From Cystobacter ferrugineus (lineage in GTDB: Bacteria; Myxococcota; Myxococcia; Myxococcales; Myxococcaceae): a stretch of DNA of 64,000 nucleotides. Where the stretch lies: assembly GCF_001887355.1 (NCBI RefSeq), contig NZ_MPIN01000001.1, positions 969,932-1,033,931 on the forward strand, given 5' to 3'. The translations under genes were made by a program, and so were the position numbers. Below, in pieces: positions 38,191 through 59,057 of the stretch. Below the pieces are notes generated by a model. That model saw nothing but the letters and a program-made list of their open reading frames with translations, ran no database searches and was not told the DNA's origin. Each line of letters begins with the position of its first letter. The first letter of the stretch is position 1.

Positions 38191-38394
38191 ACGGTCAGAG
38201 CGCCTGCTGCTCTCCCTCGGCGAGTGGCCTGATGCCATCGATACCGCGAAGGAGCACCACCTACCTCAATACCTGGCGCTGGCGCACCTGATGGAGCCGT
38301 TCCTCTACGAGCAGCACACCAACAGGTTCTCCGTGGAGAGGGACATCATGCGCCACTGGGTTCGCCATCTGTCCCGAATTGTTGGCGAAACCTG
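38190..38394 (+). pseudogene. C-terminal remnant of a DUF3396-like immunity protein
   Basis: In a second frame the sequence reads LLLSLGEWPDAIDTAKEHH, then YLALAHLMEPFLYEQ and MRHWVRHLSRI before a TGA at about 38392-38394. The length and residue pattern match the last 60 residues of DUF3396-type immunity proteins. It has no start and is joined directly to the toxin fragment, so a deletion seems to have removed the toxin end and the beginning of the immunity gene in one event. Confidence 0.45.
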
Positions 38395-38485
38395 AACAGT
38401 GATGCCCATCCCGGCTCATTGTCTCCGCGTGTCCGCGGACGGATACATCTCCCATGCCGATGACGAGCGGCGAGGGAGAAAGACC

Positions 38486-39241: not shown

Positions 39242-39272
39242 GGCCTTGGCTCATCAGCCGCCTGGACTGCCC

Positions 39273-41179: not shown

Positions 41180-41195
41180 GGGCGCGGCTCTCCTC

Positions 41196-42035: not shown

Positions 42036-42043
42036 GGTCGCGC

Positions 42044-43090: not shown

Positions 43091-43143
43091 GTGGTGGCCT
43101 CGGTCGGGTGACCGCGAGTTCCCGGGTGCATTCGAGGCCCGAC

Positions 43144-43227
43144 AAGAGCCATGAAAGTCGAAGGCCCACCGTCCCTCGCGGGAGTGGGCTCTTCGTTGCT
43201 TGCCTCCGTCAGCCTCCACGCTGACGG
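43144..43227 (-). promoter_or_regulatory. Structured leader of the sulfate operon
   Basis: Between sbp (start 43090) and the divergent kinase gene lie two strong hairpins. One at 43206-43227 has an 8-bp perfect stem CCGTCAGC/GCTGACGG and a 6-base loop. The other has nested stems GCCCAC 43164-43169 with GTGGGC 43184-43189 around TCCC/GGGA (43172-43175, 43180-43183). Its arms can instead pair AAGAGCC 43144-43150 with GGCTCTT 43187-43193. Mutually exclusive pairing in a sulfur-gene leader suggests RNA-level control, but no known riboswitch core was recognised. Confidence 0.35.
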
Positions 43228-43324
43228 CGGACGAGCGCCCACCGCCGGGACCGACAGCAACAGCAGACTTCCTGGCGGGACGGGGTGGACATTGACGCGC
43301 CTAACGTGCCCGGCACATGTCCGT

Positions 43325-43350
43325 TTGTCAAGACAACTCTCCGTTATAGC
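43325..43350 (+). promoter_or_regulatory. Possible promoter or operator of the kinase gene
   Basis: TTGTC-AA-GACAA (43325-43336) is an inverted repeat that could be an operator, and TTATAG at 43344-43349 resembles a -10 box; the spacing to a -35 is short. A strong Shine-Dalgarno-like AAGGAGG at 43353-43359 follows, 10 bases before an in-frame ATG at 43370, which is an alternative start of the kinase gene. Confidence 0.25.
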
Positions 43351-43447
43351 GGAAGGAGGGCGGACAGGGATGTCTCTCGCCGCGCGGGCAGGCGGCGCGC
43401 CGGGGCGGCTCCAGGGCCTTCCGGGCGGGTCGGCTAGAGTGGACGCC

Positions 43448-45076
43448 ATGCAAGCCGCCGCACCGCGAGCCGCGCGCTCATCCCAGTTGCTGCAGGAGTA
43501 CCTGGCCCAGGACGTCGTCCCCCGGGAGGTGTCCATTGCCCGGTTCATGCGCGGGATGGTGTCGTTCAGTTGCGTGGCGGCGCTGCTGCTCTCCGGGCCG
43601 ATCGGCTGGAAGCTGTCGTTGTGCCTCGCGGCGCTGACGGGGGCGTTGAGTCTCTATTACACGCTCATGCTGCGCGCCCTGCGGCAGGGCGGCTTCCACC
43701 CGGCGATGCAGTGGGTGGACAGCGCCCTCACGGTGTCCATTCCCGCCGTGGTGTTCCTCGCCGACGTGTACTTCAACGGGGCCGTGTACGCGCTCACCAC
43801 GCCGCCAGCGTATGCCTGGGGCACGCTCATCGTCGTGTGCGCGCTGCGCACCAACCGCCATCTGGCGTACTTCGCCGCGGCGCTCGCGGCGCTGGAGTAC
43901 CTGCTGCTCTATCTGCTGGTGGCCCAGCCCCGGCTGCCCCCCGACTCCCCGGACACGCTGGAACTGCCCATGGTGTTCCTGCGCTGCGTGTTCCTCTTCT
44001 CCTACGGCCCGCTCACGGCGACGCTCGGCACGCTCATCATGAACAAGGCCGGCGAGGCGCTGCGCGCCATCCGGGAGAAGGACGTGATGGGCAAGTACTT
44101 CCTCCACGAGCGGCTGGGCGTGGGCGGCATGGCCGAGGTGTTCCGCGCCACCTACAGCCCCGAGGGCGGCTTCGAGAAACAGGTGGCCATCAAGCGCGTG
44201 CTGCCCGCGTACGCGGACAACGAGGAGTTCCTCGCCCTGTTCCGGCGCGAGGCGGAGCTGGGCTCGCTGCTCAACCACCCCAACATCGTCCAGGTGCTCG
44301 ACCTGGGCCGGCACCAGGGCACGGTCTTCCTCGCCCTGGAGTACGTGGACGGCCTGTCGCTGAGCACGCTCCTGCAGCGCGTGCGGCGGCTGCCTCCGGC
44401 GGCGGTGGCCTATATCGGCGCGGAGATGGCCCTGGCGCTCGCGTACATGCACGGGCGCACGGGCCGCCGCGGCGAGCCGCTCGGTCTCGTGCACCGCGAC
44501 CTCAACCCGCCCAACATCCTCCTGTCGCGCATCGGCGAGGTGAAGCTGTCGGACTTCGGCGTCGCGCGCGCGGCCAATCAGCTCGCCCTCACCCGCGCCC
44601 AGACGGTGCGCGGCAAGGCGGGCTACATGGCCCCCGAGCAGGCCCATGGTCTGGCGCTGGACGGCCGCGCGGATCTCTTCGCCCTGGGCCTCACGCTGTA
44701 CGAGGCCCTCACTGGTCAGCCCGCGCTCCACGGAGAGAACGACGCCGAGCTGATGGTCGCCTCCACCCAGCAGGACGTGCCCCCGCCCTCGCACCTGGTG
44801 CCGGGCATCTCGCCCGCCCTGGACGCCATCATCGCCGGCCTGCTGCGCAGGGACCTGGCGCAGCGCACGCGCTCGGCGGAGGTGCTGGGGCGGCAGTTCC
44901 TGGCGCTCCCGGGCGCCGAGGCCCCGTATGTCCATGGCCAGCGGCAGTTGATCGACGCCCTGCGCGAGGCCACCACGCAGACCGCCACGCCCGTGCAGCC
45001 CCTGCAACTCACGCCCGACCTGGCCCTGACCGAGGCGGCCGAGGCGCTGCCCGCGCCCCATGTGAACCGACGCTGA
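43448..45076 (+). CDS. Membrane-anchored Ser/Thr protein kinase (PknB-like)
   Basis: A 542-residue kinase. Unusually for the common PknB layout, the membrane part comes first: about six hydrophobic segments in residues 38-200. The kinase domain follows from about 214, with the glycine loop GVGGMAEVF (224-232), Lys249 in VAIKR, HRDLNPPNIL (349-358, catalytic Asp351), DFGVAR (369-374) and GYMAPEQ. A roughly 50-residue tail ends in LTPDLALTEAAEALPAP. An ATG at 43370 would add 26 residues. The gene is divergent from sbp and convergent with the hydrolase gene. Pieces of its 3' end are found again at 56251-56340 and 58807-59062. Confidence 0.92.
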   Translation: MQAAAPRAARSSQLLQEYLAQDVVPREVSIARFMRGMVSFSCVAALLLSGPIGWKLSLCLAALTGALSLYYTLMLRALRQGGFHPAMQWVDSALTVSIPAVVFLADVYFNGAVYALTTPPAYAWGTLIVVCALRTNRHLAYFAAALAALEYLLLYLLVAQPRLPPDSPDTLELPMVFLRCVFLFSYGPLTATLGTLIMNKAGEALRAIREKDVMGKYFLHERLGVGGMAEVFRATYSPEGGFEKQVAIKRVLPAYADNEEFLALFRREAELGSLLNHPNIVQVLDLGRHQGTVFLALEYVDGLSLSTLLQRVRRLPPAAVAYIGAEMALALAYMHGRTGRRGEPLGLVHRDLNPPNILLSRIGEVKLSDFGVARAANQLALTRAQTVRGKAGYMAPEQAHGLALDGRADLFALGLTLYEALTGQPALHGENDAELMVASTQQDVPPPSHLVPGISPALDAIIAGLLRRDLAQRTRSAEVLGRQFLALPGAEAPYVHGQRQLIDALREATTQTATPVQPLQLTPDLALTEAAEALPAPHVNRR

Positions 45077-45102
45077 GCCTCGGTGGGCATCCAGCGCGGT
45101 GG

Positions 45103-45138
45103 CGCGGTGCATGCGCTCATCGTTCCGCTTGCACCGCG
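45103..45138. terminator. Possible bidirectional terminator hairpin
   Basis: A perfect 9-bp inverted repeat, CGCGGTGCA (45103-45111) and TGCACCGCG (45130-45138), with an 18-base loop lies between the convergent kinase and hydrolase genes. There is no clear T run, so function as a terminator is only suggested by position. Confidence 0.35.
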
Positions 45139-45186
45139 GTGGCGAAGCTGAACGCGACCGCTCCTCGTCGGTTGGGACGCCGACGT

Positions 45187-46755
45187 CTACCGGGCCTCGT
45201 TCCCATCCGCCTGGGCGGCGGTGGTGGCTGGGGGCTCGACGAGGAACCTGATGCGGCCCTCGGCCGCGCAGGAGGTATCAGGCCGAACCGCGGGCTTGCG
45301 CAGGAACGCCCGGGAGATGTCCGCCGCGCAGGGATGCGAGGAGAGCACCGCGTGAGAGCCGCCCGCGATGACCACGTGGTGGCCATGCTTGAGGGGCCGC
45401 ACCGCGGCGCTCGCCAGCCCCGGCGGGGTGACGGGGTCGAACTCTCCCGAGAGCAGCAGCGTGGGCACCTTGGACACCACCGGTTCGTACCAGGCAGCCT
45501 CCGCGGTGCCCGCGGGCCACTGGGCGCAGGTGTTGAACATGTCGAGCTGCGTGGGCAGGAAGAAGCCCCGGAGCTCCGGCAGCGCCCCGGCCGCTCCCGC
45601 CGTCACCGCCTCGGGGGTGGTGGCGGACACCTCTTCGCGGCACAGCGTGGAGAGGTGCATGCCGTAGCTGAGACGCATGAACGACGTCAGCACCGGCGAG
45701 GCGCCGATGGCGTTGCCAAGCAGCGTGGTCTGCTCCTCCTTCAGTGCGTGGAGCATGGCGGGGAGCGTCTCCAGAAGCGCCGGGTCCTGGAGGAAGCTGT
45801 GCAGGAACTGGACGAAGATGGCTCCGTTCACCTGCATGCGGCCACTCCGGCCCTCCTGGGTCTGGAAGACCACCGGGAGGGGCCGCGCGTCGAGGGACTG
45901 CACCACCGAGGAGAAGAGGGGCTCCAACGAGGGATAGCGGGCGTTGCAGGCCGCGTCCGCGGCGCAGACCTCGAACACCTTGCGCAGGGAGCGGTCGAAG
46001 CCCGGCACCGCCTGGAGGTAGAGGTTGTCCCGCGGCGGCAGCACCGAGTCGACGATGGCGCTTCGCACGCGCTGGGGCGCCCGGCGGAGCACCTCCATCG
46101 CCAGCCGCGAGCCGTAGGCGGAGCCTCGGAGGTTGATGTGCTGGAACCCCAGCGCGACCCGGAGCGCCTCCACGTCCCCGGCGCTCTCCTGGGTGTTGTA
46201 GGCCGTGATGTCAATGCCCTGGCCCTGCAGGCGCGCACTGCACCGGCGCAGCGGGTCCGGATACGGCATACCGACCTCCCAGCACTCCAGCGCCGGCTGG
46301 GACGCCCCGACGCCGCGCTGGTCGAACACGATGAGCTGCCGGTCCGGGGCGAGGGCCTCCACCCGCTCCCGTGTCAGGGTGCTCGCGAGGTAGGCGGCGC
46401 GAACTCCCGGGCCTCCCTCCAGGAGCACCACCGGATCCTTCGCCTTCACCTCCTCGGGGTTTCCGAAGAGGGCCACCGCGAGGTGGATCCACTTGCCCTC
46501 CGGCTGGGCGTGGTGCTCCGGGACGGCGACGTAGCCGCACCGCACCGTCTCGCCTTCCACCTGGTCAGGTGCCAGCGAGAACCAGCACGGCGTTGGCTCG
46601 AAGCCCACTGGCGCGTGCTTCTTCACCAGGGCCATGCCAGTGCTGTCCATTGCGGAGGATGGCTCGGCCTCGTCCGCCTGGCCGCAGCCCGCGAGCAGCA
46701 ACCCACTTCCCACCCGCACCAGCCAACGCGTCAGCCCTCTTCTCGAGAAACGCAT
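45187..46755 (-). CDS. S33-type alpha/beta-hydrolase lipoprotein lacking the expected Ser
   Basis: A 522-residue lipoprotein (leader with LLLAGC, Cys24) of the tripeptidyl-aminopeptidase-like S33 group. VVLLEGGPG (109-117) is the oxyanion-hole motif, LIVFDQRGVGAS the next block, and the C-terminal cap ends with LLLSGEFDPVTPP (Asp440) and IAGGSHAV (His468). The elbow that normally reads GGSYG reads GSAYG (211-215), so Ala213 stands where the nucleophile Ser should be. The neighbouring Ser212 is one position off. The protein may be a non-catalytic binder, or use a shifted Ser. GAGGA lies 5 bases before the ATG at 46755. Confidence 0.85.
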   Translation of the reverse strand: MRFSRRGLTRWLVRVGSGLLLAGCGQADEAEPSSAMDSTGMALVKKHAPVGFEPTPCWFSLAPDQVEGETVRCGYVAVPEHHAQPEGKWIHLAVALFGNPEEVKAKDPVVLLEGGPGVRAAYLASTLTRERVEALAPDRQLIVFDQRGVGASQPALECWEVGMPYPDPLRRCSARLQGQGIDITAYNTQESAGDVEALRVALGFQHINLRGSAYGSRLAMEVLRRAPQRVRSAIVDSVLPPRDNLYLQAVPGFDRSLRKVFEVCAADAACNARYPSLEPLFSSVVQSLDARPLPVVFQTQEGRSGRMQVNGAIFVQFLHSFLQDPALLETLPAMLHALKEEQTTLLGNAIGASPVLTSFMRLSYGMHLSTLCREEVSATTPEAVTAGAAGALPELRGFFLPTQLDMFNTCAQWPAGTAEAAWYEPVVSKVPTLLLSGEFDPVTPPGLASAAVRPLKHGHHVVIAGGSHAVLSSHPCAADISRAFLRKPAVRPDTSCAAEGRIRFLVEPPATTAAQADGNEAR

Positions 46756-46982
46756 GCTTCCTCTTGGGTTTGGTTGGGCACGGCGTGTCGCGTTCAGCCG
46801 CGGGCCTTCCCCTGGAGGTGTGGCCCCGTGCGCCAGTCCTCGGTCTGGCATGATTACAGGATTTATCGAAAATTTTGAACCCCTTGTGCCTCCTGGATTA
46901 CCGGAAAAGCATGACGCCATGTGTCGTGGAGCGCATGGCGGGGGCGCAGTCCACCCCCCATGGCCTCGGTGACGAAAGAGAA

Positions 46983-47016
46983 CCGGCCGGGCGCCCCACC
47001 TGGCTCGCCCGGCCGG
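46983..47016 (-). terminator. Rho-independent terminator after the GH114-like gene
   Basis: An 11-bp perfect stem, CGCCCGGCCGG paired with CCGGCCGGGCG around a 12-base loop (46994-47005), is followed on the minus strand by a T-rich stretch TTCTCTTT. It lies 24 bases after the GH114-like stop. Confidence 0.7.
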
Positions 47017-47039
47017 CCATCCCTCGAAGCGTCCGGGGC

Positions 47040-48554
47040 CTACTGCGGATCCCACCCGGCGTTCACGGTCATCTTGTTCAGCGCACGCACGGAGACATAG
47101 GGGACGAAGCCGGCCGCACGCGAGCGGGTATAGGCATCCGCGATGTGCGCGGCCTGCACCGCGTAGTCCACGGAGAGCACGAGCTTGCCCGCGGCACGCA
47201 CGCGCGCGGCGTTGTTCCGGTTCTCCGCGCACCAGTCCGCGGAGCACGCCTTGTCGTCCGACCAGTACATGTCCTCCATGCCCAGCCCATCGATGGCCCC
47301 GAGGTAGCCCTCGTAGTCGATGAGCTCGGGGGAGTTCTGCGGCATGACCTTGAAGGAGGGGTTCTTGGACTTCGCGTACTGGCTGATGCGCGAGATGAGC
47401 GCCACCATCTTGCGCGCCAGGTCCTCACGGTTGGTGCCCGCGGCGTTGGCGGGGATCTCCTCGTAGGTCACCACCATGTCCAGGTAGCAGCCAGTGAAGC
47501 CGGCGGCGAGCGCCTGGTCGATACGGCCCTGGACGATGGGCCACCAGCGCTCGTCCCAGTACTTCACGTACTGCTCGTCCGGCCAGCCGTCCACCGCGCC
47601 GAGCTTCATGTCCGCCGGCACCAGGCTCCACTCGGGGCGGTACTCCTCGATGGCGCCGATCTCGAAGTAGGCGAGCACCTGCTTGCCGGTGGCCTTCACC
47701 GCCGCGAGCTCATCGCTCCGGAAGTAGTCGTCCGACCCGTCACGCGACAGCTCGATGATGGCCAGGTTGAACTTGGAGGCGGCAATCTGGTCCAGCTTGT
47801 TGTTGGCGTAATTGGTCAGCTGGTAGGTGAAGCTGGTGACGCCCTCCCAGGGCACGGGCGTGCTGGTGCCCGCATCGGTGGTACCCGCGTCTGGCGTGGA
47901 GCCACCGGCGTCGGGAGTGGAGGTCCCCGAGTCCGGCGTGGTGCTGCCCGCGTCCGTCCCCTCGAGCTGGAGACGCACCACCAGCAGGTCGAGCTGCGAG
48001 GCATCCGCCGACGACGACGTGCTGTAGCGCAGCTTGAAGGGGCCACCGCTCACGAAGCGTCCCACGGGCGCGGGGAGCGCGAGCGAGGTGGACGTCCACG
48101 TCCAGGAACTGGCGAAGGTGTTGTCACCCACCACCACCCAGGCACCCGCCTGGTAGTCCCAGGCCTCGAAGAGCCAGCGCATCTCCGAGCGCAAGGGGCC
48201 GCGGTAGTTGATGCCCACCTCGGCGGCCTGTACCGCCGAAGCGCTCACGTCCAAAGGCAGCGCATGGGTGCACGTCGCCGAGCTGTTGGCGGCGAACTCC
48301 ACGTACTCGGCCCAGCGATCCTCGGTGCCGGACAGGGTCTGGGTGGCGAGTGCCTGCGCACTCTGCCCCGAGCCGATGGAGCCGCGCAGCACCTGGAGGG
48401 TGGAGCACGTCAGGGTCCGGGCGTTGGTGAGTGCCGCCGCTTCGGGAGCTCCTGACTCAATCTCCGCCTGGGGGGGCTCGTGGCACGCGGTGATGACCGC
48501 GAGCAAGGTCAGAGAGAGTCGGGCCAGAGTGTATCTCACGGGTGATCTCCTCAT
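47040..48554 (-). CDS. GH114-like (MJ1477/TM1410) glycoside hydrolase lipoprotein
   Basis: A 504-residue exported protein. The leader has the lipobox VITAC. Residues about 45-190 are a beta-sandwich that may bind carbohydrate. A low-complexity linker with repeats of TPDAG follows (about 200-235). The catalytic TIM barrel from about 240 has FTYQLTNYANN, LAYFEIGAIEEYR, GCYLDMVVTYEE and GLGMEDMYWSDD, as in endo-alpha-1,4-polygalactosaminidase relatives. It probably cuts amino-sugar polymers outside the cell. It is divergent from the GH43-like gene, so prey or matrix polysaccharide use may be coordinated. Confidence 0.85.
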   Translation of the reverse strand: MRRSPVRYTLARLSLTLLAVITACHEPPQAEIESGAPEAAALTNARTLTCSTLQVLRGSIGSGQSAQALATQTLSGTEDRWAEYVEFAANSSATCTHALPLDVSASAVQAAEVGINYRGPLRSEMRWLFEAWDYQAGAWVVVGDNTFASSWTWTSTSLALPAPVGRFVSGGPFKLRYSTSSSADASQLDLLVVRLQLEGTDAGSTTPDSGTSTPDAGGSTPDAGTTDAGTSTPVPWEGVTSFTYQLTNYANNKLDQIAASKFNLAIIELSRDGSDDYFRSDELAAVKATGKQVLAYFEIGAIEEYRPEWSLVPADMKLGAVDGWPDEQYVKYWDERWWPIVQGRIDQALAAGFTGCYLDMVVTYEEIPANAAGTNREDLARKMVALISRISQYAKSKNPSFKVMPQNSPELIDYEGYLGAIDGLGMEDMYWSDDKACSADWCAENRNNAARVRAAGKLVLSVDYAVQAAHIADAYTRSRAAGFVPYVSVRALNKMTVNAGWDPQ

Positions 48555-48884
48555 GGGATCGAACCTTTGGGTGATGACAACACCGATGCGGGGGTTGCAT
48601 CGGCGCGCGCCCTTATGCCTCGTCCCTGGCTTGATAGGAATTCATATTTTCCATTTATTTCGGTTCCTTCTATTTTTCGGAATGAATGGGAATTCCACCG
48701 CGCACGATCTCAATGTCTGGCATTGCGCCGCGGTGGCGTATTGGAACCCACCCCGCGATGGGCAGGAGCATCATCCCAGCGGCTCGCCCTTTCAGGTGTT
48801 TCTATGATATCATGTATTCCAGGTTTTTTATTGACGCGATACCCGGCTTTGCTCTTCGATGGGCGCCCCTCCAGGAGGACTCTC
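48555..48884. promoter_or_regulatory. Divergent control region of two secreted hydrolase genes
   Basis: These 330 bases are notably AT-rich at 48636-48690 compared with the rest of the window. They contain a perfect palindrome ATGATATCAT (48804-48813) and TTGACG at 48831-48836, a possible -35 box for the GH43-like gene about 50 bases before its start. No gene is supported here, although frames run through it. The palindrome is a candidate operator. Confidence 0.35.
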
Positions 48885-51041
48885 GTGCTGATCTCCCCGC
48901 GCCCCCAAGCCACCCCATGGAAGGCCGCTACGCTGCTGCGCGTGATGGTGTGCGGCCTCTTCGTGCTCATCGCGCCGCGTGCCCACGCATCGGGGACGTT
49001 CGTCAACCCGCTGAACACCAGTGCGGACCCGTGGATGCAGTACCACAACGGCTCCTACTACCTGGCCACCACCCAGGGGAGTTCGATCAAGATCTGGAAG
49101 GCGGCGTCGATCTCGGGCCTGCTGACAGCCACGCCGACGACCGTGTGGACCGGCTGCTGCAACGTCTGGGCATCCGAGTTCCACCTGCTCAACGGCCCGA
49201 ACGGCCCGCGCTGGTACCTCTACTACACCAAGGACGATGGGACCGACGTCAACCACCGCATGTACGTCTTGGAGAGCAGCGGCACGGATCCGCTGGGCCC
49301 CTACACGGACAAGGGCCGGATCGCGACCGATCCCAACAACCAGTACTACGCCATCGACGGCAGCGTCCTGCGCAAGAGCGACGGCTCGCTGTACTTCCTC
49401 TGGGCCGGGCACCCGGGGCACCTGCTCTACATCGCGCCGATGAGCAACCCGTGGACCATCAGCGGCGCCCGGGTCAACATCCCCGCGTCGGGCTTTGGAT
49501 GCACCGAGGTGCGTGAAGGCCCGGTGGTGCTCCAGCGCAACGGTCGGATCTTCCTGACCTACTCCGCTTGCGACACGGGCAAGCCGGACTACAGGCTTGG
49601 CATGCTCACCGCCAACGAGAGCAGCAACGTGATGAACCCCGCCTCCTGGTCACAGACGGCCAACCCGGTGTTCCAGCGCAACGATGCCAACGGGGCCTTC
49701 GGGCCTGGGCACCATGGGTTCTTCAAGTCGCCCGATGGGACCGAGGACTGGATCATCTATCACGCGAAGACCACCACCGAGTTCACGTACAACGGCCGCA
49801 CGACCCGAGCGCAGCGCATCACCTGGAATGCCGATGGGACGCCGAACTTCGGCGGCCCGGTGTCCCTCGGAGCCACGCTGACCAAGCCCTCGGGTGACAA
49901 CGGGCCCAGCCCCATCACGCTGAACGACAACGCCACCGGCACGGGCCTCCAGCAGTTCGAGTACACCGGGAGTTGGAGCTACGGGCCTTCCTGCGGGGTC
50001 GGCTGCTACCAGGGAGATGATCACTACTCCAACACCGCCAACGCCTCCGTGCAGGTGCGCTTCAACGGCACGCGGATCGTCCTTTATGGCGCGAAGGACC
50101 CCTCGCACGGCATCGGGGCGGTCTCGATCGATGGGGGGGCGGAGACGCTCGTGGACTTCTACCAGTCACCGCGCCAGGGCCATCAGGTCATGTACATCAG
50201 CCCGGTGCTCAGCGCTGGTCCGCACACGCTCAAGCTCCGCGTCACCGGGACCAAGAATGGCGCCTCCGGTGGCTACTACCTCACGATCGATCGGGTCGAC
50301 ATCAGCGCCAGCGCGACCGATGCCACCCGGTACGAGGCCGAGCACGCGCAGTTGACGAATGCCCGTGTCGCCAGCATCGCGAGCGCGTCGAACGGGCAGA
50401 AGGCCGGCTACATCGACTACGCGGACAGCGCGGTGCGCTTCACCGTCAACGTCCCCAAGGCCGGCACGCACGCGGTCACCGTGCGCTATGCCAATGGCTG
50501 GGGGGCTAGCAGCCACAATGTCTCGGTCAACGGGGGAGCGCCCTTCGGCGTGAACTATGCCAACAACGGGGTGGATGTCTGGAGTTCGCTGACGTTGCAG
50601 GTGCCCCTGAACGCGGGGAACAACACGCTCACCTTCACGAAGGGCAGCAACTTCACCGAGCTGGACTACCTCGAACTGCCCCGCTACGAGGCCGAGAACG
50701 CGACGATCTTCCACGCCGCGATCGCCTCCCAGGCCAGCGCGTCGAACGGGCAGAAGGTTGGCTACATCGATTACGCGGACAGCTTCGTGGAGTTCCGGGT
50801 CAATGTCCCCAGCTCGGGCACCTATACCCTGCGCACGCTCTACAGCAACGGCTGGGGCGCCAGCAGCCACAACATCTCGGTCAATGGCGGCGCTCCCTTC
50901 AGCCAGAGCTATGCCAACAACGGCGTCGATGTCTGGACGGCGGCCACCACCACCGTGAACCTCAACGCGGGCACCAACACCATCCGCTTCACGAAGGGGG
51001 CCCAGTTCACGGAGCTGGATTACATCGAGATCTACAGGTGA
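48885..51041 (+). CDS. Secreted GH43-like arabinofuranosidase/xylosidase with tandem carbohydrate-binding domains
   Basis: A 718-residue exported protein. The GTG at 48885 has AGGAGG at 48873-48878, 6 bases upstream, and gives a signal peptide ending in RAHA-SGT. The five-bladed propeller catalytic domain covers about 37-335: Asp48 (ADPWMQYHNG) as base, Asp158 (YYAIDGS) and Glu211 (VREGPVVL) as acid fit GH43. A jelly-roll domain (355-475) is followed by two closely similar CBM6/35-like domains (482-599 and 600-718), each with YEAE, ASNGQK-GYIDYADS and GWGASSHN-SVNGGAPF. It probably releases arabinose or xylose from plant-type polymers. Confidence 0.87.
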   Translation: MLISPRPQATPWKAATLLRVMVCGLFVLIAPRAHASGTFVNPLNTSADPWMQYHNGSYYLATTQGSSIKIWKAASISGLLTATPTTVWTGCCNVWASEFHLLNGPNGPRWYLYYTKDDGTDVNHRMYVLESSGTDPLGPYTDKGRIATDPNNQYYAIDGSVLRKSDGSLYFLWAGHPGHLLYIAPMSNPWTISGARVNIPASGFGCTEVREGPVVLQRNGRIFLTYSACDTGKPDYRLGMLTANESSNVMNPASWSQTANPVFQRNDANGAFGPGHHGFFKSPDGTEDWIIYHAKTTTEFTYNGRTTRAQRITWNADGTPNFGGPVSLGATLTKPSGDNGPSPITLNDNATGTGLQQFEYTGSWSYGPSCGVGCYQGDDHYSNTANASVQVRFNGTRIVLYGAKDPSHGIGAVSIDGGAETLVDFYQSPRQGHQVMYISPVLSAGPHTLKLRVTGTKNGASGGYYLTIDRVDISASATDATRYEAEHAQLTNARVASIASASNGQKAGYIDYADSAVRFTVNVPKAGTHAVTVRYANGWGASSHNVSVNGGAPFGVNYANNGVDVWSSLTLQVPLNAGNNTLTFTKGSNFTELDYLELPRYEAENATIFHAAIASQASASNGQKVGYIDYADSFVEFRVNVPSSGTYTLRTLYSNGWGASSHNISVNGGAPFSQSYANNGVDVWTAATTTVNLNAGTNTIRFTKGAQFTELDYIEIYR

Positions 51042-51065
51042 TGGTCTCCAGTGCCCCGGGGGGTA

Positions 51066-51086
51066 GGCAGCGCTCATGGCGCTGCC
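51066..51086 (+). terminator. Terminator hairpin after the GH43-like gene
   Basis: GGCAGCGC (51066-51073) and GCGCTGCC (51079-51086) form a perfect 8-bp stem with a 5-base loop, followed by TGCTCTTGT. It lies 25 bases past the stop codon. Confidence 0.6.
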
Positions 51087-51144
51087 TGCTCTTGTCGTGA
51101 AAGAGATCCACTGGGCTTGAGCCGGGGGTTACGTGGACGTTGGG

Positions 51145-51460
51145 TTATGTCGCCAACTTCAGCGGTAAGGCCGCAAGCTCAAAATCCACAGGGCTGACGT
51201 AGCCGAGTGTCGAGTGCCGCCGCTGCCGGTTGTAGAAGACCTCGATGTACTCGAAGAGCGTCAACCGCGCTTGCTCGTGCGTGGCGAAGTCCCTGGTGTA
51301 GACGAGTTCCTGCTTGCCGGTCGATGCTCTCGCCTCTCTCGAGGCGATTGGGAGCCACGGGCTGGTGGTGGCGCGAATCCGTCGTGGACACGTAGCGCCG
51401 TTGCCTCCTCGCGGCCAGCCCTTGCTCGCTCATGAGCCGGACCACTCGCTTGCGACTCAC
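51145..51460 (-). pseudogene. IS3-family transposase remnant
   Basis: Two pieces of an IS3 OrfB-like protein remain on the minus strand. The 5' part reads SRKRVVRLMSEQGLAARRQRR and TTDSRHHQPVAPNRLER. The 3' part, in another frame, reads VYTRDFATHEQAR, LFEYIEVFYNRQRRHSTLGYVSP and a TAA at 51145-51147. Most of the DDE core between them is deleted, with a frame change at the junction near 51325. It lies directly before a group of genes with somewhat different composition, so it may be the scar of the event that brought them in. Confidence 0.8.
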
Positions 51461-51614
51461 CGAGCCTGGCCGCGGGCCAGACCGTGGACTTGGAGGCTGA
51501 ACCCATCCCGGCGGCCGGATTCTTCGACGTCACCGCACCCTGCTGACAGTACGGTGGCAGCAGCCCTTCGCTACATCGACTCGCGGCCGATCTCCGGCGC
51601 GGCGAGGAGCGAAG

Positions 51615-52658
51615 ATGCGGTACAACATTCTGGGACGGACCGGGCTGTTCGTGTCCGAACTGTGCCTCGGCACGATGAACTTCGGCACCAACCTCGGCAA
51701 ATATGCCGCGGCTGGTGGGCTCGAGGAGCGCGACGCACTGCCGCTCTTCGCCCGCGCGTTCGATGCCGGCATCAACTTCGTCGACACCGCGAACGTCTAT
51801 GCAAGCGGACAATCGGAGGAGATCACCGGCCGCGCGATCAGGTCGCTGGGCATCTCGCGCCATGATGTGATCGTCGCGACCAAGGTCGAGCACGCCGTCG
51901 GCACCGGTCCCAACGACGCGGGCGCGACACGTCACCACCTCCTGCATCAGGTGAAGGCGAGCCTGACGCGGCTCGGCACCGACTACATCGATCTCTACCA
52001 ACTCCATGGCTGGGATCCAGTGACCCCGCTCGAGGAGACGATCCGCGCGCTCGATGATCTCGTGCGCCAGGGCCACGTCCGCTACGTCGGAGTCTCCAAC
52101 TGGGCGGCGTGGCAGGTGGTCAAGGCACTGGGTATCGCCGAGCGGCTGAACGCGTCACCGTTCCAGAGCTTCCAGGGCTATTACTCGCTCGCCAGCCGCG
52201 ACCTCGAACGCGAGCTCGCGCCGATGCTGGCCAGCGAGCGGCTGGCGCTGATGGTGTTCAGCCCGCTCGCCGGCGGCTTCCTGACCGGGAAGTACCAGCA
52301 CGGCGGGAACGGCCGACGCAGCGCCATCCCCTTCCCGCCGGTCGACGAGGCGCGCGGCGAGCGCGTGCTCGCGGCGATGGATGGCGTCGCGGCCGCGCAT
52401 GGCGTGCCGCTGGCGACCATCGCGCTCGCGTGGCTCTTGCATCGGCGCGTCGTGACCAGCGTCATCCTCGGTGCGAAGCGCCTCGCTCAGCTCGAGGACC
52501 AGCTCAAGGCCGTCGACGTCACGCTGTCGGACGACGAGATACGGACCCTGACCGACGCGAGCGCGCTGTCCGTCGAGTACCCCGGCTGGGCGCTGCGGGT
52601 GAACGACGCCCCACGCGAGGCACTGCTGCAAACCGGCCGCCTGCCGACCGAAGACTGA
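51615..52658 (+). CDS. Aldo/keto reductase
   Basis: A 347-residue NADPH-dependent reductase with a TIM barrel. It has LCLGTMNFGTNLG at the start, FVDTANVYASGQSEE with the catalytic Asp and Tyr, ATKVEHAVG with Lys, and a later YIDLYQLHGWDP with His. The C-terminal part has VILGAKRLAQLEDQL, the NADP-binding region. AGGAG sits 5 bases before the ATG. Of the group AKR, DUF1761, WYL regulator it is the first gene, with 42 bp to the next. Codon choice (many GCGATC and GATC pairs) differs a little from the flanking genes. Confidence 0.9.
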   Translation: MRYNILGRTGLFVSELCLGTMNFGTNLGKYAAAGGLEERDALPLFARAFDAGINFVDTANVYASGQSEEITGRAIRSLGISRHDVIVATKVEHAVGTGPNDAGATRHHLLHQVKASLTRLGTDYIDLYQLHGWDPVTPLEETIRALDDLVRQGHVRYVGVSNWAAWQVVKALGIAERLNASPFQSFQGYYSLASRDLERELAPMLASERLALMVFSPLAGGFLTGKYQHGGNGRRSAIPFPPVDEARGERVLAAMDGVAAAHGVPLATIALAWLLHRRVVTSVILGAKRLAQLEDQLKAVDVTLSDDEIRTLTDASALSVEYPGWALRVNDAPREALLQTGRLPTED

Positions 52659-52700
52659 TCCAGGCCCGGGTTCTTCCACACCGATAAGGGAGTAAAACCG

Positions 52701-53117
52701 ATGACCGAAGCATTCTCACAAATGAACTGGCTGGCCGTTCTGGTGGCGACCGTCGCCCATTTTGCCCTGGGCGGCGTCTGGTACATGGTGCTGTTTCCCA
52801 AGCAATACAGGGCCTCGCTCGGCAAGGGCGACCAGCCGGCGCAGAAGCCGGGTCCACTGTTCATGGTGGGGCCGTTCGTGTGCAGCGCGATCAACATCGC
52901 GACGACCGTGTTCCTCCTGCGCGCGCTCGGCATCACGACCTACGGCGATGCGCTGCTCCTGGGGGCGATCGTCGGCATCGGCTATCTGGTGCCGATGACG
53001 GTCAATATCGCCATCAACCCCAACTTCCCGCGGCCGTTCTACTACAGCCTGATCAGCGGCCCGATGTTCACGCTGGGCAGCCTGATGTCGGCGGCGATCA
53101 TGGTCGCGATGTCGTAG
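52701..53117 (+). CDS. DUF1761 membrane protein
   Basis: A 138-residue integral membrane protein with about four helices. The block NWLAVLVATVAHFALGGVWYMVLFPKQYR is the usual DUF1761 start, and TVNIAINPNFPRPFYYSLISG is the conserved middle. Function of the family is not known. It begins 42 bp after the reductase gene and 37 bp before the regulator gene, so the three probably form one transcript. Confidence 0.85.
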   Translation: MTEAFSQMNWLAVLVATVAHFALGGVWYMVLFPKQYRASLGKGDQPAQKPGPLFMVGPFVCSAINIATTVFLLRALGITTYGDALLLGAIVGIGYLVPMTVNIAINPNFPRPFYYSLISGPMFTLGSLMSAAIMVAMS

Positions 53118-53154
53118 GATCGGGCGCGCCACATCATCACGAACGGACCCCACC

Positions 53155-53883
53155 ATGCGGCGCGCTGACCGACTGTTCGAGATCATCCAGGTGCTGCGCC
53201 GCGCGTCGGCCCCGCTGACCGCCGATGCGATCGCGGCGGAACTCGAGACCAGCAAGCGCACCATCTACCGCGACATCGGCGCGCTCATCGCGCAGCGCGT
53301 CCCGATCCGCGGCGAGGCGGGGGTCGGCTACATCCTCGAGCGCGGTTTCGACCTGCCGCCGCTGATGCTGACCTCGGACGAGATCGAGGCGGTCGCGCTG
53401 GGGGCCCAATGGGTGATGGCGCACGCCGACGCCACTCTCGCCCGCGCCGCCCTCGACGTCCTCGCCAAGATCGCGGCGATCGTGCCCGAGGACCTGCGCC
53501 CGATCATCGACGACCCCGCGGTCGGAACCCCGCCGTCGAGAGAGGTGCACGACGACGTCGACGTCGATGTCGCGAAGCTCCGCGAGTGGAGCCGGCAGGG
53601 GCGGAAGCTCGCGATCGGCTATATGGACAAGACCGGCCGGACGAGCGAGCGCGTCATCTGGCCGTTCATGGTGGGCTATGTCGCGACGGTGCGCGTCGTC
53701 ATGGCGTGGTGCGAGCTGCGCGCCGGCTTCCGGATCTTCCGCACCGATCGGTTGACATCGGTCGACTTCCGCGACGAGCGCTATCCCGAACACCCCGTCG
53801 TCCTACGCCGCCGCTGGCTGGCGACGATGAGAGAGGAGCATGCCAGGGCGCCTGTCCGCCCCCCTCATGCCGATCGCGCCTGA
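53155..53883 (+). CDS. YafY-type HTH and WYL-domain transcriptional regulator
   Basis: A 242-residue regulator. Residues 1-60 are a winged helix of the HTH_11 type (RADRLFEIIQVLRR, TSKRTIYRDIGALIAQ). The rest is a WYL-like ligand domain (RQGRKLAIGYMDKTGRTSERVIWPFMVGY), with LAIGY in place of the usual WYL-like tripeptide. It is last in the reductase/DUF1761 group and probably controls it. Small-molecule and nucleic-acid ligands are both known for this type. After its stop the DNA becomes degenerate for almost 1 kb. Confidence 0.88.
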   Translation: MRRADRLFEIIQVLRRASAPLTADAIAAELETSKRTIYRDIGALIAQRVPIRGEAGVGYILERGFDLPPLMLTSDEIEAVALGAQWVMAHADATLARAALDVLAKIAAIVPEDLRPIIDDPAVGTPPSREVHDDVDVDVAKLREWSRQGRKLAIGYMDKTGRTSERVIWPFMVGYVATVRVVMAWCELRAGFRIFRTDRLTSVDFRDERYPEHPVVLRRRWLATMREEHARAPVRPPHADRA

Positions 53884-54818
53884 CCGATGACCGCCTTCAC
53901 CCCGCGCCGCGAAGCGGTTCGTTGGTCGGAGCTCAACCGCATGCGCACCGGAGCGGCTCAAGGAGGGACGTCGACCTGATTGGTGCTTCAAGCCGGGAGG
54001 CGGAGAGCGAGCCAGGTCCACACGACCCCGGCCGCGCGGTTCCCCGGCTGCGGCGAGGGTGCTTCCCGTTGCGCGATCGGCTCGAGGCCAGCTTCGCGCG
54101 CGGGCGCCACGGTGTCCGCGACGGACAGGTCGAAGCCGGGTCGGCTCGCTGGCGTCGGGCCATGGCGTATCGCCAGGAGCAGCGTGCCGCCGACGGTGAG
54201 TAGGCCAGCAAGTGCCGGCAACGCTCGCGATCGATAGTGTCGAGATGATGCCAGACCCCGATCGAGAGGCTCTCACGCTCGCGCCAACCATAGCCATGCA
54301 AAGGCGGAGAAAACCAACCGGTTCACCTTGCCCGGCAAGGGAGACGCGGCGCCCAGGACGAAGAGCTCTCCGCCCGTCTGTCGCACGGACGTCGTGGTGG
54401 CGAGAGCCCTGATGAAGAGCTCGGAGGGACCACCTGATGCACAGAGGCGTGCATCCGGCGAAGGGGGCGGTGTCGTTACTCCCCTCCGCCATGCTGGCCG
54501 TGGGCGCCATGGCGACGAGGAACGCCGACATGGCGGAGATGGCGGTCCGGGAGGAGTGGAATGCCCTGGGCAGCTTCTTCATACGCAACACCTCATCGAC
54601 GGTTTGAAATGGACAACACGTATGACTTTTTTTGAGAGAGTGGAAATGACGCAGTGGCTGCGCATGCGGTGCGGGCATTTGTCCCTGGCCGAGCGAAGCG
54701 TCCTGCGAGACTCCCGGTACCGTCACGCTCCGGTCCAGCTCCGACTGACTCCGCTGCGCCGTGCCTCGCTGCCCGGTGCGCTCATCCGCGCTCCGTCCAG
54801 ACGGAGCGCGGCGAGCTA
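53884..54818. other. Degenerate region without a supported intact gene
   Basis: Nothing here makes a convincing complete gene. On the minus strand a short frame from an ATG at 54582 has a good ribosome site (GAGG about 8 bases upstream) and a signal-peptide-like start (MKKLPRAFHSSR, cleavage near SMA-EGS), then loses coding character at about 54420. A second minus-strand piece, 53988-54221, begins with a hydrophobic stretch and may be a fragment of a membrane protein. The region separates the WYL-regulator group from a toxin pseudogene and looks like a deletion-prone junction. Confidence 0.4.
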
Positions 54819-54959
54819 TTACAGTTCCTTGGCCAGCAAATGCAGTGGCATGGTGGGGCGCGCATCCGCGAAGGCGGTGAGCGAGTCGTAACCCCGCTCG
54901 CGGACCCACTCGTACAGGCGTGCCACCCAGTTGCCCTGAAAAGGATGTCTGTCGCTCAT
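54819..54959 (-). pseudogene. Truncated partner gene of the DUF2380-type toxin
   Basis: From an ATG at 54959, with GGGGAGAGG just upstream, 46 codons are read (MSDRHPFQGNWVARLYEW, then YDSLTAFADARP and LHLLAKEL) before a TAA. I recall a family of about 150-residue myxobacterial proteins, often labelled NUDIX, that start this way and continue LLAEELGKDD; if correct, only the first third remains. Its ATG overlaps the TGA that ends the extended toxin frame (ATGA), as expected for an immunity partner. Confidence 0.5.
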
Positions 54960-56164
54960 GATCCTCTCCCCGGGATGAAATTCATTGGGATGTAGTACGC
55001 CTTCATACGCTCTGCGACGATCTTCAGGATCTCGTTCCGTGTCAACAACCGGCCCACTCTGGACTCGGCTCTTCCCAAAACCTCCATGATCATCTGGTTC
55101 CATTCGTCGGGTCATGTGCGCCCCAGCTTCCAGTTACCCCCGCCGTGAATGGCCTCGTGGTGCGCCTGCTCCAGCTTGACGCAGAACTGGTCGATGTCCA
55201 TCTCGCCGGTGAACCCGCGCTTCTCGAACCACTCGCGGAACTCCTTGGGCAGGACGTGGTGCCGCGGAGGCTCGGCCATGCCGGCCCCCGTTTTGCCCGT
55301 CACGCGCATACCCCGCACCTCGGGGCTGTCGCCCAGCGCTTCGCGTACACCCCTGGGCAGTTCGCCGTGTGCCTCGGCCATCATCACCTGGCCCGCCTGA
55401 ATCCGCACGGCGGCGGTGACAGCGGGCAGGGAGAGGACGCCCGCTCGCACCAACTGGCGCATCATCTCCACCCACTCGGCGGAGACGACGAGCCGTGTGC
55501 CCATCATCACGCCGTTGGAGCCCACCATGAAGCCCACGCCGAGCGTGGCGGGGCCGGCTCGTGGCAGCAGCCGGGGCAGGGCGAACCTCAGCGCCGACAG
55601 CGTGGTGAGTGCCTCCATGGCATCCTTCAGTGCCAGCGCCTTCTGGAGGACTTCCGCCCCCTCGCGTATGGCCTCACGGAGTGCGGCGAACTCGCCGGTG
55701 AGGTGGCCCACCAGGGCGGGGACGTCTTGCTCCGCTGCCTCCACCTGCTCCGGCTCCAGCGAGGAGAGCGCCGTCATGTTGGGCTCGAGCATCTTCTGGG
55801 TGCGGTCCATCTTCACGAACAGCGTCTCCACGCCATGGAGGTGCCGGGAGAGCGCGACGTCGGTGAGGTTGAGGAAGTCAACCCATACGGCCAGGAGAAT
55901 GGAGCCCATCATGGCGGCTTCCAGCCGTGGGCCAGCCAGGCGCAGCAGGGCGAGCCTCATGTCCGAGTCCTCCACCTCCGAGGCGGCAGTGGCCAGCCGG
56001 GTGGTGGCTGCGAGCTCGGCGTCAATCCACCGCCGTTGATGTTCGCCGTAGTCGACGTAGCGGACGAAGATGCCGTTGCCTACGCCAGGGATGCCCAGGT
56101 GGCTGGCCTTGAGCCTGGAGAGTTCGCTGGAGACGCGGCGCGAGGAGGTGGAGACCTCGGTAGT
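54956..56164 (-). pseudogene. DUF2380/SitA6-like lipoprotein toxin, 5' truncated with nonsense codon
   Basis: The frame holds about 400 codons of a DUF2380-type myxobacterial toxin: SRLKASHLGIPGVGNGIFVRYVDYG, RWIDAELAATTRL, LALLRLAGPRLEAAMMG, then HHVLPKEFREWFEKRGF and AHHEAIHGGGNWKLGRT, a His-rich nuclease-like end (HH...H...H). A TGA at 55112-55114 stops it, but the same frame continues PDEWNQMIMEVLGRAE and LTRNEILKIVAERM to IPMNFIPGRGS, the normal ending, where Trp (TGG) is expected at the TGA. Another in-frame TGA at 56165-56167 precedes TTEVSTSS. The lipoprotein leader is missing. Confidence 0.7.
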
Positions 56165-56250
56165 TCAGCGCGCATGGTCCACCTCCAGGCCCACGGAAGC
56201 GAATGAGCCTGCCCCGGTTTTGTTTGTGGTTCTCCCGCATCTTAATTCAC

Positions 56251-56340
56251 GCCTGACATGGCCCTGACCGAGGCGGCCGAGGCGTTGCCCGCGCCCCGGG
56301 CGGGCCGATCCTGAGCGGCCCCTGGAGCCTTCCATGAAAG
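56251..56340 (+). repeat. Short copy of the kinase 3' end and downstream arsC leader
   Basis: Bases 56251-56303 repeat the kinase gene near 45011-45060 (GACCGAGGCGGCCGAGG, then TGCCCGCGCCC). The following GAGCGGCCCCTGGAGCCTTCCATGAAA matches the sequence just before arsC (GGCCCATTGGAGCTTCCATGAAG, 59041-59063). The fragment therefore repeats a junction, kinase end then arsC start, that is seen again at 58970-59063. Confidence 0.7.
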
Positions 56341-56430
56341 AAAACAACTCGGCGGCTTGACGGGCGCACACGCCTTTCCGTGTAGTTCCAGAGTGACGGC
56401 TTCTGGCTACGTCACTTCCGGAGGTGCGCC

Positions 56431-58116
56431 GTGTCCACCCGTTTTCCTGGCACTCGCCCTACGGGCGCGCGGCTGAGCCACTGCGTTGGCGCCTGGGCCC
56501 TCCTCATTATTCTCTTCCACTTCTCATGTGCCACGGGCACCCCACGAGGCAGCTTCGTCGCCTCCCGCTACCACTCGCTTACGCCTTCGTCGGCACCCAA
56601 GGAGCGTGTGGCCGCCACGGCGGAGCCCGGCCTCGAGTCCGCTACCGTGTACGCCGTGGACTTCCTGGAGCCTGGCACCGTCGCCACCCGGCCGGTGCCC
56701 ATTCCCAGGGCCGAGTTCCAGCAGGCCTTCCTGCGCCTCTCGCGCGACGTGCGGCTGGGGGCGAAGACTCCACAAGCGGCCGCCCGGGAGTTGCTTCACC
56801 TTCTGCCGCCACCCAAGGGGGGCGAGACGGTGGACAGCCAGGGAGAATGGCTGCTGGAGGTGTATCGCAACCAAGCCTACACCCTGGTGCCCGAGCGCCA
56901 GGAGGGCCCGGTGGTGCTCACTCCCGAGGCGGATGAAGCCCTGAGGGTCAGGTACCTCCAGTGGTGTGCACCCCGGGGAGGCGGCGACTGCCTGGGCTTG
57001 TTGGACGACGGGCCCTACCTGCGCACGGATGACCGGCGAGCGTTCGCCCTGGCCCTGGCTTTCGGCCACGTGCTCGACGAGACGCGCGAGGCCCTGGTGC
57101 ATGGGCTGCTGGACGTGCGGATGATGGTGTCCATGGTCGTCTGGTCGGTGGCTCTCTACTGCATGATGTGGGTAGTGCCCGAGCCGACAACCAAGGCCCT
57201 GGCCGCCGGCATGACCCTCCTCCTGATGGGCTACCTGGGCCTCCAGACGGTGTACGGCCTCATGAATGGATGGGTCCGGATGGCTGACACGGCGCATCAC
57301 GCCACCACCTTCGAGGAACTGCGTGCGGCGGGTGAGGACTTCGGCAAGGTGCTGGGCGAGGACGCGGCTCGGGCCATGATTCTCGCCGTGGCCTCGCTCA
57401 GCGGGCACACGCTGGGGCAGGTGCTGCCGCGGGTGAAGTCGCTCCCGCGCTTCAAGCTCGCCGGGAAGCAGTTCGAGGCGCAGGGCGGCGCCGCCGTCAT
57501 GGGGCGTCTGGAGGTGACGGAGGCGGCGCTCGCGACAGAGGGCGCCCTGGCCAAGGCTGTAGCGGCGGCGGAAACGGTAGCCACGTCTCCTCAGGGCCCC
57601 ATGGCCGTGGTGATGCTCAAGAAGGGGACGGGCAGTGGGTCGGGACTGGCTCCAGGGGGCCGCTCCGCCGAAACCGTCATTCGTCACCGGGGCGGCAACC
57701 GGCAGGTGGAACTCAGCGACGGTCAGCGCTGGCACTTGCCACGCGGAAAGTCGGCCGTGGACATTCCCGCCGAGGACAAGGTGGGGGACATGCTCCAGGA
57801 GGCCGTCACCCAGGTCGCGAGAGAGTGGGGGCCCCATCGACTCTCAGGCGCCGAAAAGAGGGCCATCGACGAAGCCAAGAAGAACGGGGAGTATTGGCTG
57901 GCGCGACTGCTGGAGCGCGAGGCTCGAGGACGCTACGTGGAGAGGGAGCTGAGACGAAAGTTCGACGGACTTCTTCGATTCAACCACCAGGGAGTCGACG
58001 TGATTGATCCCTCACCAGGAGGATACAAGTACGAGATTCTCTCCGGCACGGCGTCGAATCTGGCACGGCACGGTCGGCGTATGGCGGGCGAGTTCTTCTG
58101 GATGATCACCTTCTGA
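56431..58116 (+). CDS. SitA5-like polymorphic toxin lipoprotein
   Basis: A 561-residue toxin of the type passed between myxobacterial kin by outer-membrane exchange. The GTG at 56431 has GGAGG 6 bases upstream. The leader ends in HFSC, a poor lipobox, followed by ATGTPRGS. The family body has AVDFLEPGTVATRPVPI, VRYLQWC, GDCLGLL, MWVVPEPTTKALAAGMTLLLMGYLG and HATTFEELRAAGEDFGKVLGEDAAR (residues about 60-310). The last 150 residues are the variable toxin part: RWHLPRGKSAVD, RYVERELRRKFDGLLRFNHQGVDVID and KYEILSGTASNLARHGRRMAG, which looks like a nuclease fold. The gene for a candidate immunity protein follows after 11 bp. Confidence 0.8.
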   Translation: MSTRFPGTRPTGARLSHCVGAWALLIILFHFSCATGTPRGSFVASRYHSLTPSSAPKERVAATAEPGLESATVYAVDFLEPGTVATRPVPIPRAEFQQAFLRLSRDVRLGAKTPQAAARELLHLLPPPKGGETVDSQGEWLLEVYRNQAYTLVPERQEGPVVLTPEADEALRVRYLQWCAPRGGGDCLGLLDDGPYLRTDDRRAFALALAFGHVLDETREALVHGLLDVRMMVSMVVWSVALYCMMWVVPEPTTKALAAGMTLLLMGYLGLQTVYGLMNGWVRMADTAHHATTFEELRAAGEDFGKVLGEDAARAMILAVASLSGHTLGQVLPRVKSLPRFKLAGKQFEAQGGAAVMGRLEVTEAALATEGALAKAVAAAETVATSPQGPMAVVMLKKGTGSGSGLAPGGRSAETVIRHRGGNRQVELSDGQRWHLPRGKSAVDIPAEDKVGDMLQEAVTQVAREWGPHRLSGAEKRAIDEAKKNGEYWLARLLEREARGRYVERELRRKFDGLLRFNHQGVDVIDPSPGGYKYEILSGTASNLARHGRRMAGEFFWMITF

Positions 58117-58127
58117 AAGGAGCAGCC

Positions 58128-58760
58128 ATGGGGTGGCTGGAAAACGTCATCTACAAGAACCAGGAGATTGAAAACGAGCGGCTGGAACTGATGGACAAGA
58201 ACTCGCTTTACTTCCTCAGCACCGACCTGACGCTGCGTAACTGCACCGTCGTCCTGCGAGTTCCCGCCAGCCGCCTGGTCATCAAGCAGGCCCAATTCAT
58301 CCACTGCACCTTCGAGGTGAAGCAAGAGTTGAAGAACTACCAGGATTGGGTAACAGCCTCCCTGAAGGGTTGTTGCTTCAAGGGGAAACTGACGGGCTGT
58401 GACTTCGGATATTGGCCCGAGTACGGGAGTGACTCTTGGTTTCAGCATGGAGCCATCGAGGATTGTGACTTCACCGAGGCCCGCCTTGACGCTTGCCGAA
58501 TCATGGGGTGTGACCCCTCCACCATCCGCTTTCCCAAGTGGCCATGCTTCACCATCCTGGACCCCATAGAACGAGCCGCCGAGCTACGCAGCGTCAAGTG
58601 GCCGGGCCGGTATGGCTCTGTTGTCGTAGACGAGCTTCATACCCACCCGCCTCGCACCAGAGCGTTGACTGAACACGCCCCCACCATTGCGAAGCGGTTT
58701 GATACCACTCCGGAAGAACTCCGAGCAGTCATCGAGAAGTTCGACTGCATCGTCTACTGA
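58128..58760 (+). CDS. Candidate immunity protein for the SitA5-like toxin
   Basis: A 210-residue soluble protein. AAGGAGCAGCC directly before the ATG is a strong ribosome site. The first two thirds have pentapeptide-repeat-like beta strands with recurring Cys/Phe pairs (LRNCTVVL, QFIHCTFEV, KGCCFKGKLTGCDFGY, IEDCDFTEARLDACRIMGCD). The last 60 residues are helical. The gene follows the toxin by 11 bp and its base composition is lower in G+C than the flanks, as is common for immunity genes. No immunity family name can be given with confidence. Confidence 0.65.
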   Translation: MGWLENVIYKNQEIENERLELMDKNSLYFLSTDLTLRNCTVVLRVPASRLVIKQAQFIHCTFEVKQELKNYQDWVTASLKGCCFKGKLTGCDFGYWPEYGSDSWFQHGAIEDCDFTEARLDACRIMGCDPSTIRFPKWPCFTILDPIERAAELRSVKWPGRYGSVVVDELHTHPPRTRALTEHAPTIAKRFDTTPEELRAVIEKFDCIVY

Positions 58761-58806
58761 CGTGCGGAGAGTCGCCCTGGCGAAGGGCCGCGATGCAGCG
58801 ACAACT

Positions 58807-59057
58807 CAGCAGGACGTGCCTCCACCCTCGCACCTGGTGCCGGGCATCTCGCCTGGACTGGACGTCATCATCGCCGGCCTGCTGTGCAGAGACCTGCAGC
58901 AGCGCACGCGCTCGGCGGAGGTGCTGGGGCGGCAGTTCCACGCAGAACGCCACGCCCGTGCAGCCCCTGCAACTCACGCCCGACCTGGCCCTGACCGAGG
59001 CGGCCGAGTCCCTGCCCGCGCCCGGTGCCCACCGGCCCTCGGCCCATTGGAGCTTCC
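58807..59057 (+). pseudogene. Remnant of the Ser/Thr kinase 3' end
   Basis: Bases 58807-58939 are nearly identical to 44768-44900 of the kinase gene (reading QQDVPPPSHLVPGIS to TRSAEVLGRQF). About 73 bases of the kinase are then missing, which shifts the frame, and 58939-59020 resumes as 44974-45059 (TPVQPLQLTPDLALTEAAE). There is no start and no kinase core, so it cannot make a kinase. It lies between the toxin/immunity pair and arsC. Confidence 0.8.

Follow-up and report, generated by a model that had tools for sequence, protein, structure and literature searches.

The gene and its motifs

The window analysed here is a 64,000-nucleotide stretch of the Cystobacter ferrugineus genome (G000). 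The minus strand at 45187..46755 encodes a 522-residue protein of the S33/TAP-like alpha/beta-hydrolase fold with Ala at the nucleophile position, as judged from the open reading frame, Pfam, HMMER and a predicted model. The protein scores 67.4 bits against PF00561 (Abhydrolase_1; curated cut-off 25.8) and 60.4 bits against PF08386 (the TAP-like C-terminal family; curated cut-off 21). Each of its seven NCBIfam matches lies under the respective cut-off, and PADLOC matched a single general TAP-like model. Read by eye, the signal sequence (46684..46755, minus strand) ends in an L21-A22-G23-C24 lipobox, whose Cys24 is that of a predicted lipoprotein.

The GGPG oxyanion-hole motif (residues 114–117; 46405..46416), the catalytic acid position Asp440 (45436..45438) and the catalytic base position His468 (45352..45354), all on the minus strand, are kept according to the alignment, as the original prediction stated. 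Glu374 (45634..45636, minus strand), which may act in the lid, is present in 79 of the 83 Ser-type rows of alignment A2. This alignment was built without the window locus (L001), two loci with internal stops (L002 and L058), two short loci (L021 and L023) and the last 28 loci. The nucleophile elbow (46111..46125, minus strand), assigned by alignment and positioned with the predicted model, consists of G211-S212-A213-Y214-G215 and is encoded by GGC TCC GCC TAC GGC. The earlier reading of the codon GCC (46117..46119, minus strand) as Ala213, where the catalytic Ser is expected, is borne out.

Ala213 lies opposite the elbow Ser of Hip1 in gap-free HMMER alignments, and the nucleophile column of alignment A2 contains Ser in all 83 Ser-type rows, which confirms that the nucleophile is missing from the elbow. 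The window protein thus combines the profile scores, the predicted fold with a cap, the Asp and His positions and the GGPG motif of the S33 TAP-like/Hip1 group with Ala213 in place of the group's Ser nucleophile in G-x-S-x-G. The elbow had been predicted to read GSAYG instead of a family form GGSYG. GSAYG is indeed read here, but GGSYG is not the single family form, as Val, Ile or Leu is commoner than Gly at the x position.

Orthologues and origin of the alanine

Overlapping searches were run over 39 relatives and over genomes of the family (96) and of the phylum Myxococcota (195). The phylum search scored at most seven candidates per genome, a depth at which close orthologues would rank first and beyond which more weak homologues may exist. 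Close orthologues are found in 5 of the 195 genomes, which belong to three genera (G000, G002, G010, G041 and G052). The copies are 95% (G002, same genus), 78% (G010 and G041) and 75–77% (G052) identical to the window protein, and the elbow reads GSAYG in four of the five, G000 included, and GSAHG in G052. The next relatives show at most 37% identity and have Ser at the elbow.

An elbow census of 121 loci yielded 119 readable elbows, with two loci lacking a match, and covered all 108 places from the phylum search and 11 weaker ones. Ser is found in 114 and Ala in five of the readable elbows (103 and five, respectively, among the 108 phylum-search places), and the last 28 elbows added are all of the Ser type. 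Each of the five Ala copies has Ser at residue 212, which never occurs there among the 114 Ser-type homologues.

In a tree of 49 of 53 loci, from which four loci with short matches were dropped, all Ala rows fall to the same side of a branch supported at 100/100, and their stem measures 0.95 changes per column. According to a warning of the tree tool, L058, a long row, could be misjoined to the Ala clade, and the single origin of Ala is independent of where L058 joins. The alanine has one origin in this tree and is fixed in the clade. The lone mutation that the original prediction named as an alternative is not what is observed, given that Ala is common to all five close orthologues. Likewise, a sequencing error, in favour of which nothing was found, is ruled out by an identical Ala in five separate genomes, and both explanations can be set aside. 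Scans of genome contigs and viral contigs returned no named relatives. Matches from plasmids and phages are all below 60% identity and, among the matches listed, reach at most 31% and 26%, respectively.

Predicted structure and the position of Ser212

An AlphaFold2 model from an 87-row alignment has a pLDDT of 87.6 and a pTM of 0.87; the shallow alignment A1 gave a pLDDT of only 39.3. In the model, a strand (residues 207–212) is followed by a helix (residues 215–225), so that the strand ends with Ser212 and the turn contains residue 213. Residue 213, not Ser212, is therefore predicted to occupy the elbow tip, and the modelling check proposed earlier favours the absence of the nucleophile, with the qualification that a predicted model could miss a local change since its input alignment is dominated by Ser relatives. 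According to a survey of the fold, the nucleophile forms part of a G-X-Nuc-X-G motif and sits where the turn that follows strand 5 reaches its apex, and the residue preceding the nucleophile can touch ligands (PMC7034887).

By sequence, the nearest solved relatives are the mycobacterial Hip1/CaeA proteins (HMMER; 2.7e-57 with the family profile). The best fold matches in the PDB are tied between TnmK1 (Z 29.4–29.7) and Hip1 (Z 28.9–29.4) over 404–420 residues (VIA-align on a Foldseek list). The structures of TnmK1 (PDB 8e18 and 8e19) and TnmK2 (8g5t) resemble the window protein in fold with Z values of 28.2–29.7. TnmK1 catalyses C-C bond formation in enediyne biosynthesis.

A further explanation is that the protein is still catalytic by another chemistry, in which the nucleophile is displaced to Ser212 or the Asp440-His468 pair acts without a serine. 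This explanation would account for the restriction of Ser212 to the five Ala copies and for the retention of Asp440 and His468 in all five, and it draws on the C-C bond formation of TnmK1, a top structural match. Some C-C lyases of the fold also need no serine, according to a review (PMC11878206). However, in the model, which itself leans on an alignment of Ser relatives, Ser212 ends the strand and the turn is occupied by residue 213. Three copies have drifted at oxyanion, elbow or acid-loop positions, and TnmK1 itself has the elbow Ser in the alignment, where the window protein has Ala213. Catalysis by such a route is judged distinctly unlikely.

Changes beyond the nucleophile

The Ser rows have 57 columns conserved at 90% or more. 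All four Ala rows of the alignment, which does not contain the G002 copy, retain 47 of these columns. Seven of the 57 columns, including S213A, T216S and D140Q, differ in all four Ala rows. Each Ala row departs from the 57 columns at seven to nine positions versus at most six in 77 of the 83 Ser rows, the columns having been chosen on the Ser rows. Private changes are observed at positions that are invariant or nearly so in the Ser rows, namely G115N in G002, T443A in G010 and Y214H in G052. As a result of the first, the GGPG motif reads GNPG in G002 and is kept in the other four copies, G000 included. Changes at G115, T443 and Y214 are as expected if selection on catalysis is gone.

Each of the five copies retains the ten cysteines of the mature protein as well as Asp440 and His468. 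The longest invariant runs in the Ala clade (residues 236–258, 356–374 and 154–169) are of modest significance, with shuffle p values of 0.065 for the longest and 0.020 for the second. The fold seems to be retained, whereas the catalytic machinery is drifting in part. Four of the five copies are open across more than 500 codons. The lipoprotein start is intact in three copies; the G002 copy has an in-frame stop two codons after the lipobox Cys, and the G052 copy has Gly in place of this Cys, which the other four copies contain.

Selection on the alanine-type gene

With F3x4 codon frequencies, the pairwise omega of the Ala gene is 0.16–0.28 and significantly below 1 in all ten pairs, and that of the Ser paralogue is 0.04–0.10 in the four within-genus pairs with unsaturated dS. 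Because the genes are very GC-rich, other codon-frequency choices were run on seven of the ten pairs. Omega of the Ala gene then rises to 0.40–0.80 (equal frequencies), 0.31–0.61 (overall) or 0.21–0.41 (position 3). Six of the seven pairs remain significantly below 1 under all three choices (0.21–0.60), including pairs that inherited Ala from a shared ancestor. For the pair nearest the window, G000–G002, two of four codon models fail to separate omega from its neutral value (2dlnL 0.5 with equal and 2.2 with overall frequencies). The Ser paralogue has an omega of 0.05–0.34 in four pairs (0.11–0.34 with equal frequencies).

Parsimony assigns 100 synonymous and 131 nonsynonymous changes to all branches, and about 70% nonsynonymous changes are expected under uniform mutation. 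The G041, G052 and inner branches are significantly below neutral. The other end branches, with small counts, are not significantly so (synonymous to nonsynonymous changes of 4:6 in G000, 8:10 in G002 and 2:8 in G010). The parsimony counts and the other frequency choices show that constraint is weaker than F3x4 alone implied. Purifying selection is indicated in most pairs but is weak, weaker than in the Ser paralogue, and the evidence for it is weakest at G000–G002.

These values bear on the explanation that the gene is a decaying relic, that is, a horizontally spread hydrolase without its nucleophile that has little or no function and is kept until broken. Such decay would be consistent with the stop in G002 and the lost lipobox Cys in G052, with the private losses at G115, T443 and Y214, with the patchy distribution over 5 of 195 genomes, and with weak constraint, given that G000–G002 is indistinguishable from neutral in two codon models and three end branches are not significantly below neutral. 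It is at odds with the four copies that are open over more than 500 codons, the retention of all ten cysteines in every copy, and an omega significantly below 1 in six of seven pairs at every frequency choice, pairs sharing the ancestral Ala among them. The relic explanation is possible, on the unlikely side.

Movement of the gene and the variable island

The Ala gene lies at the left edge of a variable island, which spans 45078..59000 (no strand; right edge approximate) in genome comparisons, and is located 110 bases beyond the end of a kinase gene. A 1.8-kb block around the gene (45163..46959, no strand) matches a non-syntenic site on the G002 chromosome at 97% identity and is the unit common to both genomes; the G002 copy is found at another site. 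The flanks of the island are about 95% (mostly 94–96%) identical to G002 and G003. Window positions 31326–45077 and 59483–64000 match G002, and most of 7708–45077 and 59048–64000 match G003. At the island site, G003 contains 1.6 kb and G002 contains about 32 kb; a 2.2-kb part of the latter (window 48854–51077, 98%) is shared.

The 20-kb loci around the five copies share little beyond the gene, except for the flanks of G010 and G041. The G000 and G002 loci also share 0.2 kb before the gene and a separate transposase-like stretch of 207 bases. In the island, 206 bases (window positions 51110–51315) are 86% identical to part of a transposase-like open reading frame upstream of the G002 copy (L034 8042–8389; IS3-type by eye).

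With F3x4, dS of the Ala gene versus the Ser paralogue is 0.07 versus 0.23 for G000–G002 and 0.14 versus 0.44 for G010–G041. Between genera, it is 0.18–0.63 for the Ala gene versus at least 2.5 (saturated) for the Ser paralogue. The gene has moved between species.

Comparison with related proteins and interpretation

Hip1/CaeA (Rv2224c; PDB 5ugq and 7sfm), of the S33 tripeptidyl-peptidase cluster, resembles the window protein in its fold, its GGPG motif and the positions of Asp and His at an identity of about 21–24%. However, Hip1 has Ser228 at the position of Ala213 and is described as a protease (PMC4022732). There, the role of the serine was probed with the engineered mutant S228A, which is equivalent to the natural, clade-fixed Ala213. 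In the same account, S228A has a CD spectrum like that of the wild type and leaves azocasein and GroEL2 uncut. A DHFR-fragment assay indicates that it still interacts with the substrate GroEL2, in a way that "appears to be more robust" (PMC4022732). This precedent makes binding without cutting plausible for the Ala protein.

Pseudoenzymes are known, including some of this fold (PMC10211241 and PMC11878206). The DUF687 proteins of Chlamydia are described in the latter as having an alpha/beta-hydrolase fold without catalytic residues, and its authors propose binding or scaffolding for them (PMC11878206); the window protein differs in that it keeps Asp and His and misses the nucleophile. Among the open-licence papers listed, none described a horizontally moving clade of the TAP-like S33 branch with a naturally fixed Ser-to-Ala change, or such a protein in myxobacteria. 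A closer comparison is provided by the Ser paralogue of the window genome (G000:C2:1102770-1104071), which belongs to the same family at about 35% identity and has a lipoprotein-like start by eye, but has a GVSYG elbow and is under stronger constraint.

Compared with active homologues, whose activity is suggested by their motif and by Hip1, the Ala protein lacks an essential catalytic residue, as read from its sequence. The best explanation, about evenly poised between right and wrong, is that the protein is a mobile S33-fold pseudoenzyme that is kept for non-catalytic, perhaps ligand-binding, work and is decaying in some hosts. The nucleophile position would have turned into Ala within the tripeptidyl-aminopeptidase/Hip1 S33 branch, along the long stem that leads to a small clade from myxobacteria. 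In the same elbow, a new Ser would have arisen beside the Ala, converting xS to SA, whereas fold, cysteines and Asp-His pair would have been preserved. The secreted protein would then take up a peptide or similar ligand, or hold a protein partner, and leave it uncleaved, as an acyl-enzyme cannot form without a nucleophile. We infer that the Ala protein is probably non-catalytic, may bind a ligand and may reside in the envelope. The single gene, which has moved between species, would be weakly constrained and decay in some hosts. Instead of an isolated mutant, the protein is probably an enduring, non-cutting descendant that has passed from species to species. In favour of this explanation are the shared Ala with its single origin, the modelled elbow, an omega below 1 in most pairs, the retained columns and cysteines, the private changes and the Hip1 S228A precedent.

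The occurrence in only 5 of 195 genomes, the lack of a cross-genus neighbour hinting at a partner, the seven to nine departures of each Ala row from the conserved columns, and the G000–G002 pair and three end branches that are not clearly below neutral speak against the pseudoenzyme explanation. The peptide or ester binding suggested earlier is a possibility, and a strong claim for a dedicated binder is further weakened by the stop in G002, a member of the same genus, by the loss of the lipobox Cys in G052 and by constraint below that of the Ser paralogue. A bolder variant takes the change from xS to SA as a working re-tooling, in which Ser212 and the Asp440-His468 pair would either support a reaction, displaced-serine or serine-independent, or trap a ligand tightly, and the gene would spread among social myxobacteria through a transferable trait conferred by the envelope protein; this is regarded as a long shot. 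The Ala clade still evolves under some constraint, and its genomes also encode Ser-type paralogues, a natural contrast with which to ask whether the fold can be kept as a peptide or protein trap. Automatic annotation would presumably label the Ala protein a hydrolase, which calls for caution.

Neighbouring genes

No partner gene is shared across genera within the 20-kb loci of the five copies. In the island, a SitA5-family polymorphic toxin gene (56431-58116, plus strand; NF050093, 211 bits, cut-off 160) is directly followed by a possible immunity gene of no clear family (58128-58760, plus strand). A link between the Ala protein and kin discrimination through this toxin, whose gene is about 10 kb away in the window, was considered and rejected. 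Matches to the SitA5 escort domain (E at most 0.001) number 66 in G000 and 20–57 in five other genomes, a very large repertoire. Among the matches listed, the G041 contig has none, and the distance from the Ala gene to the closest match is about 24 kb (G002), 34 kb (G010) or 114 kb (G052). Because such matches are numerous per genome and remote from the other copies, the proximity in the window is no evidence of a link.

The island also contains a GH114 gene (47040-48554, minus strand) and a GH43+CBM35+CBM6 gene (48567-51041, plus strand). The product of 55112-55975 (minus strand) has a sub-threshold DUF2380 C-terminus (19.2 versus 26.3 bits), DUF2380 being a lipoprotein family of unknown function. 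Near the right edge, positions 58804-59023 contain partial repeats of the 3' end of the kinase gene at the island's left border.
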